From the NCBI RefSeq assembly GCF_027484705.1, contig NZ_JAIXSL010000016.1:1-64000 (forward strand): a DNA stretch of 64,000 nt. Reading direction: 5' to 3'. The position numbers and the translations under genes were made by a program. Position 1 is the first letter of the stretch. Each line of letters begins with the position of its first letter. The notes under the pieces are model-generated. The model had not been told where the DNA came from. It ran no database searches and saw only the letters and a program-made list of their open reading frames with translations. This document shows, piece by piece, positions 4,555-61,774 of the stretch. The DNA comes from Flavobacterium sp. GTDB taxonomy: Bacteria > Bacteroidota > Bacteroidia > Flavobacteriales > Flavobacteriaceae.

Positions 4555-4629
4555 ACGCCTGGACCCGCTATCCGCTAAATCTTTTATGCCGAACCCCGGC
4601 ACAAAAGGATACCGCTGCTATCGGGGCTA
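4555..4629 (+). repeat. 82-nt structured intergenic repeat, copy A
   Basis: CCCGCTATCCGCTAAATCTTTTATGCCGAACCCCGGCACAAAAGGATACCGCTGCTATCGGGGCTA. Confidence 0.85.
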
Positions 4630-4782
4630 ATGGTTGAACAATCATTTCCGAATCACTTTTTCAAAATTTGCGACGGTCAACCATTTTCAAAATTCCCACA
4701 TTCTGCAATACTGGTTTTGATGCCGAATCCAAACGTCGTATCTTAGAGCCAAACAACTTTATTTTCTTAGAACCACAAAAAA

Positions 4783-28568: not shown

Positions 28569-28650
28569 AGGAGCTGTTCCCGCTATCCGTTACAATCTTT
28601 TGTGTCGAACACCGCCACAAAAGGATTTTCACTACTATCGGGGCTAGGGC
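28569..28650 (+). repeat. 82-nt structured intergenic repeat, copy B
   Basis: AGGAGCTGTTCCCGCTATCCGTTACAATCTTTTGTGTCGAACACCGCCACAAAAGGATTTTCACTACTATCGGGGCTAGGGC. Confidence 0.92.
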
Positions 28651-44212: not shown

Positions 44213-44929
44213 ATGGAAACAGACAACAAAAAAATCCTCTTAGTAGAAGACGACCAGAACTTTGGCGCCATACTAAAGGATTACCTCATGCTCAATGACT
44301 TCGATGTCACGCTCGCCAAGAACGGCATGGAAGGTTTCGAAAAATTCAAAAAAGACACTTACGATCTTTGCATCCTGGATGTTATGATGCCTTATAAAGA
44401 CGGCTATACATTAGCTAAAGAAATCCGCGAGAAAAACAAAGACGTGCCGATTATTTTCTTAACGGCCAAATCGATGAAAGAAGATGTGCTCAAAGGCTAC
44501 AAAGTAGGCGCAGACGATTATCTCAACAAACCTTTCGATTCGGAAGTATTGCTGATGAAAATCAAAGCCATCATCCAACGAAAAGCCAACGATGTCAAAA
44601 CCGATCACGTAAAATTCGAGTTCCAGATTGGGAATTTCCACCTGAACTCAAAATTGCGTTTCCTGACGTTCAAAAACGAGGAACCGATCAAACTCTCGCC
44701 AAAAGAAAACGAATTGCTTAAAATGCTCGCAGTATACGAAAACGATTTGATGCCAAGAGAATTAGCGCTCACTAAAATCTGGAGAGACGATAATTACTTC
44801 ACGTCAAGAAGTATGGACGTTTACATTGCCAAACTCAGAAAATACCTCAAACTCGATGAAGACGTAGAAATACTCAACATCCATGGCGAAGGTTTCCGTT
44901 TGGTAGTCAAAAACAAAATCGCCAGTTAA
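44213..44929 (+). CDS. OmpR-family response regulator (RprY-like)
   Basis: ILLVEDDQNFGAIL; DLCILDVMMPYKDG; GADDYLNKPF; winged helix C-terminus. Confidence 0.94.
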   Translation: METDNKKILLVEDDQNFGAILKDYLMLNDFDVTLAKNGMEGFEKFKKDTYDLCILDVMMPYKDGYTLAKEIREKNKDVPIIFLTAKSMKEDVLKGYKVGADDYLNKPFDSEVLLMKIKAIIQRKANDVKTDHVKFEFQIGNFHLNSKLRFLTFKNEEPIKLSPKENELLKMLAVYENDLMPRELALTKIWRDDNYFTSRSMDVYIAKLRKYLKLDEDVEILNIHGEGFRLVVKNKIAS

Positions 44930-44934
44930 AACAC

Positions 44935-44962
44935 AAAGCCCTGAGAAATCGGGGCTTTTTTT
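44935..44962 (+). terminator. Rho-independent terminator
   Basis: AAAGCCCTGAGAAATCGGGGCTTTTTTT. Confidence 0.8.
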
Positions 44963-44964
44963 AT

Positions 44965-45048
44965 GAGAAGCTATTCCGGCTATCATTCCAATCTTTTGCT
45001 TTTTAAAGAAAAAAGCAAAAGGATTTTCCCTTCTATCCGGGCTATGAC
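44965..45048 (+). repeat. 82-nt structured intergenic repeat, copy C (divergent)
   Basis: GAGAAGCTATTCCGGCTATCATTCCAATCTTTTGCTTTTTAAAGAAAAAAGCAAAAGGATTTTCCCTTCTATCCGGGCTATGAC. Confidence 0.85.
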
Positions 45049-45067: not shown

Positions 45068-45808
45068 TTATTTAAAATTCAATTCCAAAGCAAATACCGA
45101 TTTAGCATCTTTAGTAATGCTGAAAGTAGTTTTGTTTTTCAGTTGAAATTGGTGAATCTCCACCTTGTCTTTCAACGAAAGTTCCTTAAGGAAATTCATT
45201 TCGAGTGAAACAATTTTCTGCTCCAATATATAATTCTCATCCACCAAATCAAGGCACCATTCTAAATATTTCACGTTATTCACGTGGTTTACAATATCCA
45301 AATCTGACAACATCACTTTACGTTCAAATACCTTTTCTTTTTCTTCCAGAATAGTAATCTTAGAGAACGGAAGCAAAGTAGCCCGATCATACGGATATTT
45401 TTCGCAATGGTCGTGTACTAATGCCATGCCTTCAGGTCGGCGAGTTCTGGTGTTGAAAACCGCCCAGAAGGTTTCTGCTCCAATATATTTCTCACCATTG
45501 ACTGATACTTCCATAGCCCGCACCGAGCGTGAATTCTCAAGCGAGTTGATCCAGGTTTTGATGGTAATTTTATCTTTCCATTTTGGGAGTTTTGCAATTT
45601 CCAACCGCATTCTGCTGAGTACCCAAGCCTGATCGAATTCCTGCATGTCCACAAAGCTAAAACCACCTGATTCCGAATGTGCGGCAGCGGTCAATTGCAA
45701 CAGATTGCACAATTCGGTATAACGCAAATCGCCCTTAGGTGTGCATTGCATAAAATTGATTTCCCAATCCTGAGAATGTATCGACTTAAAATCGGGTGCT
45801 ATGGGCAT
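45068..45808 (-). CDS. Acyl-ACP thioesterase
   Basis: WVLSRMRLEIAKLPKWKDKITIKTWINS; LSDLDIVNHVNNVKYLEWCLD. Confidence 0.88.
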   Translation of the reverse strand: MPIAPDFKSIHSQDWEINFMQCTPKGDLRYTELCNLLQLTAAAHSESGGFSFVDMQEFDQAWVLSRMRLEIAKLPKWKDKITIKTWINSLENSRSVRAMEVSVNGEKYIGAETFWAVFNTRTRRPEGMALVHDHCEKYPYDRATLLPFSKITILEEKEKVFERKVMLSDLDIVNHVNNVKYLEWCLDLVDENYILEQKIVSLEMNFLKELSLKDKVEIHQFQLKNKTTFSITKDAKSVFALELNFK

Positions 45809-46735: not shown

Positions 46736-46816
46736 GTTTAGCCCCGATGGCAATGATATCCTTTTGGGCCGGAGTTCGGCGCAAAAGATTTAATGGACAG
46801 CGGGAAACAGCTTCTA
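46736..46816 (-). repeat. 82-nt structured intergenic repeat, copy D
   Basis: Minus strand TAGAAGCTGTTTCCCGCTGTCCATTAAATCTTTTGCGCCGAACTCCGGCCCAAAAGGATATCATTGCCATCGGGGCTAA. Confidence 0.88.
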
Positions 46817-56818: not shown

Positions 56819-56902
56819 GCCATAGCCAGGATAGCAGTGGAAATCCTTTTGCGGCGTTGTTCGGCGCAAAAGATTGGGAACGTATAGCCTGAACAGCTCC
56901 TC
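56819..56902 (-). repeat. 82-nt structured intergenic repeat, copy E
   Basis: Minus strand GAGGAGCTGTTCAGGCTATACGTTCCCAATCTTTTGCGCCGAACAACGCCGCAAAAGGATTTCCACTGCTATCCTGGCTATGGC. Confidence 0.9.
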
Positions 56903-58109: not shown

Positions 58110-58190
58110 AGGAGCTGATTCCCGCTGTTCGCTAAATCTTTTGTGTCGAACACCGCCACAAAAGGATATCGCTGCCATCGGGGCTAGGGC
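58110..58190 (+). repeat. 82-nt structured intergenic repeat, copy F
   Basis: AGGAGCTGATTCCCGCTGTTCGCTAAATCTTTTGTGTCGAACACCGCCACAAAAGGATATCGCTGCCATCGGGGCTAGGGC. Confidence 0.92.
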
Positions 58191-61692: not shown

Positions 61693-61774
61693 AGGAGCCG
61701 GGAACCTGCTGTACGCTCATATCTTTTGTGTCGAACGCCGCCACAAAAGGATAACCGCAACATCAGGGCTAGGG
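61693..61774 (+). repeat. 82-nt structured intergenic repeat, copy G
   Basis: AGGAGCCGGGAACCTGCTGTACGCTCATATCTTTTGTGTCGAACGCCGCCACAAAAGGATAACCGCAACATCAGGGCTAGGG. Confidence 0.9.

Follow-up and report, generated by a model that had tools for sequence, protein, structure and literature searches.

How does one copy of a repeated hairpin come to carry an apical stem of different sequence while its flanks stay the same, and what does such a copy tell about the positions that selection holds? The question is raised by copy C (plus-strand sequence, AGAAGCTATTCCGGCTATCATTCCAATCTTTTGCTTTTTAAAGAAAAAAGCAAAAGGATTTTCCCTTCTATCCGGGCTATGAC), which lies in the window, that is, the whole 64-kb stretch of DNA analysed here. 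The original prediction described copy C as a hairpin rebuilt with new sequence that separates constrained positions from free ones.

Identity and anatomy of copy C

Copy C belongs to a known family, Flavo-1 (Rfam RF01705), and has an informative variant tip. It matched the covariance model of the family over the full length (model positions 1–76); the score of 65.0 bits (gathering score, 42) and the E-value of 5.9e-12 for the window scan put the match far beyond chance. Copy C agrees with the family in foot, arms, fold and strand, but has a class II (TTCTTTA) tip where the common tip is GNGTTC, and its inner module is GAAGGGA/TTGGAATG. The 2010 description of Flavo-1 (PMC2864571) gave it no function. 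The perfect 12-bp apical stem that had been reported is present (CTTTTGCTTTTT/AAAAAGCAAAAG, closed by a 5-nt loop), and the segments reported as retained (AGC, CTAT, ATCTTTTG/CAAAAGGAT and GGGCTA) are those that stay constant throughout the family; the fold had been read on the plus strand, but is conserved on the minus strand. Folded as single-stranded DNA (ssDNA), each strand of copy C gave a z-score of about −2.9, and 1 of 200 shuffled sequences folded equally well; folded as RNA, copy C gave only −1.3 to −1.7. A terminator scan inside copy C returned one weak plus-strand match over the apical stem (tail ATTTTCCCTT, 3 GC pairs), and comparison of the flanks of copies in the same genome found no T-run after the element on either strand.

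Seven Flavo-1 copies, copy C included, were found in the window with the Rfam covariance models (Table 1). The genome as a whole (3.35 Mb, 24 contigs) holds at least 150 copies, at least 149 of them among the matches listed; the weakest window copy is absent from those matches, so the true number is higher than 149. Our genome-wide comparisons use the 149 copies with their flanks, for 141 of which the lower-stem pairs were parsed. Across the genus, the number per genome ranges from 0 (G018 and G020) to at least 65, and two complete genomes contain 59 and 81 copies.

Table 1. Flavo-1 copies in the window, parts of copy C and its neighbouring features.
Feature	Position	Strand	Remarks
Flavo-1 copy	4557..4632	-	70.4 bits
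Flavo-1 copy	28572..28649	-	76.5 bits
Response regulator gene (ORF, 238 aa)	44213..44929	+	Upstream neighbour, reads toward copy C
Intrinsic terminator of response regulator gene	44935..44962	+	From terminator scan; end of T-tract abuts copy C
Copy C (Flavo-1 element)	44966..45048	-	RF01705 match 44969-45047, 65 bits
H1 foot (CCGG), right arm when read in sense	44976..44979	-	Pairs with 45037-45040
Inner module, right side, sense GATTGGAATGAT	44983..44992	-	Common to the 15-copy C-type subfamily
Apical stem arm, CTTTTGCTTTTT on plus strand	44993..45004	-	12 perfect pairs with 45010-45021
Terminal loop, class II	45005..45009	-	AAAGA on plus strand; TTCTTTA-type on sense strand
Apical stem, other arm, AAAAAGCAAAAG on plus strand	45010..45021	-	12 perfect pairs with 44993-45004
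Inner module, left side, sense GATAGAAGGGAAAATCC	45022..45036	-	Common to the 15-copy C-type subfamily
H1 foot (CCGG), left arm when read in sense	45037..45040	-	Pairs with 44976-44979
Acyl-ACP thioesterase-like gene (ORF, 246 aa)	45068..45808	-	Convergent neighbour; predicted, named from sequence
Flavo-1 copy	46736..46811	+	69.2 bits; between miaA and exonuclease-domain gene
Flavo-1 copy	56820..56898	+	66.3 bits
Flavo-1 copy	58114..58189	-	70.8 bits
Flavo-1 copy	61698..61774	-	47 bits

Exchangeable tips on a constant frame

Comparison of the 149 copies shows that Flavo-1 consists of a constant frame of foot and arms with an exchangeable tip. Most tips are of class I (GNGTTC loop; 119 copies), 17 including that of copy C are of class II (TTCTTTA loop), 6 are of class III (TTTACTTCGTCAGTTC inserted in the class I loop) and 7 are of other kinds. 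The inner module of copy C (GATAGAAGGGAAAATCC...GATTGGAATGAT) is common to 15 copies in the genome, whose tips are mixed (class I in 4, class II in 6 and other in 5), indicating that modules combine freely. The best matches of copy C, paralogs at C12:296707 and C12:228396, are 93–95% identical to it over the element only. The tip of copy C thus does differ from the common form, as had been claimed, but 'new' it is not, given that both paralogs carry the same module. Elsewhere in the genus, about a dozen species also have C-like stems, with a core TTTTTTCTTTAAAAA and covarying ends, and a scan of a genome collection found the exact C module in one metagenome-assembled genome of Flavobacteriaceae. 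The genome-wide comparison that the original prediction called for therefore identifies a subfamily of C-like stems, given the 15 module copies, the 17 loop copies and the genus-wide occurrence, and other copies with alternative apical stems do exist. Judged from these sequence comparisons, the tip of copy C is not freshly invented and belongs to this genus-wide subfamily.

Two further kinds of variation were observed among the copies. A short repeat (TTTACTTCGTCAGTTCGC..GCTCG) lies inside the Flavo-1 loop at C7:72982, C17:84429, C7:63375, C9:8637, C14:12520 and C8:134983, and relatives carry a GAGCTTCC..GGTCGCTC repeat at the same loop position. A different foot (..GTGAGGGATAGC...AATAGCCCGACCCTTGTGGTCACGCC or similar) is found in the Flavo-1-like copies at C18:74239, C8:134983, C11:57880, C20:160288 and C17:153003, which look as if a Flavo-1 body had been joined to another palindromic repeat.

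Pairing is maintained on one strand

The foot of the element covaries strongly. Among the 141 parsed copies, the pair n1:n1' is Watson–Crick in 137 and G.T in 3, against at most 92 with shuffled partners, and its types are C:G (64), T:A (50), G:C (22) and A:T (1); n2:n2' is Watson–Crick in 140, with all four types represented, against at most 94 in the shuffles. Compensatory change is therefore evident, each of the two pairs being standard in 140 of 141 copies. The change of H1 to CCGG:CCGG, which had been singled out, is indeed present in copy C but is not special: 22 of the 141 copies carry it, and it is one state of an N:N' pair that covaries through the four Watson–Crick types. Pairing is less strict at two inner pairs, R (standard in 124 of 126 copies) and Y (in 102 of 126). 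The proposed distinction between constrained and free positions holds up, as the pairing columns separate cleanly and the sequence of the apical stem is free while its pairing is kept; copy C shows that the tip and the inner module are freely exchangeable and that pairing is not.

Non-standard pairs reveal which strand is folded. Among class I tips of standard length, of which 73 are distinct, G.T pairs outnumber A.C pairs by 42 to 1 on the Rfam strand (p about 1e-11); the Y inner pair runs opposite to this apical trend, with 6 A.C and 1 G.T. The Rfam strand gives the more stable fold in 142 of 149 copies under DNA parameters and in 114 under RNA parameters. The asymmetry between G.T and A.C indicates that the folded form of the Rfam sense strand is what is kept, and shows that selection maintains the pairing of this particular strand. 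The counts of G.T and A.C fit RNA as well as ssDNA; we consider selection at the level of ssDNA somewhat more likely. Our preferred reading, held with about even confidence, is that Flavo-1 is a REP-like, modular, dispersed palindromic repeat that acts as folded sense-strand ssDNA, and that the interior of copy C arose by conversion.

Gene context and the case for RNA

Rather doubtful, in our judgement, is the alternative that Flavo-1 is RNA, either a structured transcript or a 3'-UTR element made from the sense strand, with a free apical stem and a protein-bound frame. Such a molecule would account for the strand-specific tolerance of G.T, the strong covariation and the conserved loop classes, and the discovery paper scored the family as 'probably' RNA and not cis-regulatory (PMC2864571). 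Gene context speaks otherwise. On simple ORF calls, copies between tandem genes run antisense to those genes in more cases than sense (55 versus 29, p = 0.006), and a further 23 lie between divergent and 15 between convergent genes; action in neighbouring transcripts would put copies in sense, so the antisense excess counts against RNA. Folding energy and pairing are the same across gene settings (Kruskal p = 0.76), with pairing equally intact in divergent and antisense positions. In the flanks of the copies of this genome, no promoter-like sequence is conserved before the element, and the only conserved feature outside it is an A-rich tract after the 3' end. RNA-seq of F. psychrophilum likewise gives no consistent strand or transcription, its Flavo-1 matches being indistinctly sense or antisense and many of them outside transcribed regions, and the study was unable to assign the element a function (PMC9723704). 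Rfam files Flavo-1 as 'Gene; sRNA', whereas here it behaves like a dispersed repeat.

The copies do have preferred seats. Where the gene on the 3' side reads toward the copy (n = 69), its stop codon lies within 17 bp of the element in 42 cases, and a run of at least five A is found near the 3' end in 92 of 141 copies. The nearness of stop codons and the A runs suggest gene ends or T-tracts as seats, and point to seating through target choice or through purging elsewhere. A general association with terminators was considered and rejected: a clear hairpin precedes the T-tract in only 15 of 141 copies (control, 0.7), and 'inserts after terminators' is too narrow a description because copies at gene ends mostly lie directly against the stop codon.

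The same junction in related species

The junction between the response regulator and thioesterase-like genes was compared in 40 species in which the two neighbour genes face each other, with states coded by hand. Flavo-1 or a remnant of it occupies this position, with unchanged orientation, in 31 of the 40 (the genome of copy C included), and the other 9 junctions are without it, so that the locus forms a natural experiment of filled and empty relatives; the compared species also agree in the position of the response regulator terminator. Mapped on a tree of the two neighbour genes, changes of occupancy number at least 7, those of the foot pair 12, those of n2 11 and those of the tip class about 17, which shows that tips turn over faster than feet at this junction. 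The orthologous foot pair takes all four Watson–Crick types; in addition, T.G occurs twice, each time on the sense strand, and a mismatch once. Tips are common to sister species (G317/G224, G235/G289, G123/G158 and G013/G164/G092), indicating that the element is mostly inherited in place. In G308, a separate element of ~170 bp with long terminal inverted repeats (TACCATTTACACTTATAAAATAG) and a MITE-like look lies at the copy C site (L193), between the terminator T-tract and Flavo-1.

Copy C departs from this inheritance. It scores 69–70 against its own paralogs and, on the same scale, about 20 against its orthologs in G123 and G158, yet its outer junction TTTTTTTATGAGAAGC is also found in G123, G158, G310 and G143, and in its own genome occurs in only 2 of 149 copies (copy C and one other). 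Because copy C matches paralogs rather than sisters while its edge is kept, replacement of the interior in place is the simplest account: by sequence, copy C was probably replaced by a paralog module through gene conversion. The donor would be the paralogous subfamily, and the old junction with the response regulator terminator would have been retained.

Another way to the same state, which we regard as unlikely, is that an older copy was lost and a fresh one then transposed into a favoured target beside the terminator T-tract. Identity to the paralogs does end at the element ends, the T-tracts and gene ends counted above may be targets, and the repeated changes of occupancy on the tree would fit. 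But a newly inserted copy does not explain why TTTTTTTATGAGAAGC, so rare in its own genome, is the same in sister species with other interiors, and the search described below found no transposase partner.

Turnover at a second site was compared upstream of miaA, where the window copy at 46736–46811 has counterparts in several relatives. There, G317, G224, G315, G140 and G019 keep the Flavo-1 foot and have a different inner helix, with the interior GGAAACCCCG...CGAGGAGTTGYARYG and a GAGCGACC/GGAAGCTC tip. This variant gives 0–2 exact pattern matches per genome and, being so rare, seems tied to its own sites; such foot-keeping variants may lie outside the Rfam model. In other species, nested palindromes interrupt a Flavo-1 arm at this site; in G123 (L173), a small palindrome (CCTGCCTCGCGGCAAGGCGGG) interrupts one arm and an unrelated stretch interrupts the other.

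Mobility and the search for an acting protein

Under our preferred reading of Flavo-1 as a REP-like ssDNA repeat, the unit that matters would be the sense strand in its folded, single-stranded DNA form, which replication, repair or transposition would expose and a putative protein would recognise. The element would behave as REPs do, spreading and taking seats next to T-tracts and gene ends, and RecA-type conversion would mix its modules. The fuller proposal is tentative and less likely than not: that Flavo-1, instead of an RNA family, is an ssDNA hairpin that moves or recombines and has exchangeable tips, served by a putative Bacteroidota protein, persisting at fixed gene junctions over times on the scale of the genus and reshuffled by conversion in place.

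The Y1 transposase family (RAYT, IS200/IS605; PF01797) had no match in the genome of copy C in a search in which 5 of 14 controls were positive. Mobilisation by RAYT or IS200 proteins was rejected on this ground and on the lack of correlation between Y1 and Flavo-1 numbers in the genus (rho = −0.06). The foot lacks a GTAG or CGTC tetranucleotide, the constant ends being CCCTAGCC...AGCTCCTAAA, and collections of plasmids and phages contained no Flavo-1 matches. The complete genomes G010 and G036 have no replication-strand bias (p = 0.51 and 0.37), with a GC skew too weak for placing the origin, and close strains offered no example of an insertion. Two nearly complete genomes of the genus, G018 and G020, have no Flavo-1 matches at all, and their comparison with other species should be useful for finding a partner gene of Flavo-1.

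A cruciform or protein-binding palindrome without strand preference, such as a site for supercoiling, gyrase or a nucleoid protein (as in BIMEs), would also be palindromic, intergenic and near gene ends; we hold it to be very improbable, as the excess of G.T over A.C is unexpected if both strands fold alike. That the apical stem of copy C arose by chance decay of an ordinary copy can be dismissed almost with certainty, in view of its perfect 12-bp stem, its two near-identical paralogs and its genus-wide subfamily.

Relation to known repeats and significance

In RAYT systems, one strand of the REP is the relevant one. REP and BIME repeats are high-copy, intergenic, imperfect palindromes near gene 3' ends (PMC3733652). 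Flavo-1 is like RAYT-associated REPs and BIMEs in all of these traits, the single strand included, but it is about 80 bp long and has no tag at its foot, whereas REPs are 20–40 bp and carry a GTAG/CGTC tag; it also differs in that its genome is without a Y1/RAYT gene and its copy number has no link to Y1 genes. MITEs and ERIC-type repeats are dispersed, non-coding and palindromic and accept nested insertions, as Flavo-1 does; in Flavo-1, however, base pairing is conserved, and not terminal sequence alone. The attC sites of integrons are imperfect ssDNA hairpins with a conserved foot and a variable terminal structure, of which one strand is recognised; Flavo-1 shares these ssDNA hairpin traits, a likeness only in the way of working, but does not lie in cassette arrays.

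The wider result is that Flavo-1 resembles a modular, strand-specific repeat more than it does an RNA gene, a view that we did not find in the papers naming Flavo-1 that we consulted. Its strand-specific wobble bias, together with its independence of transcription context, is a concrete ground for testing Flavo-1 as a DNA hairpin.
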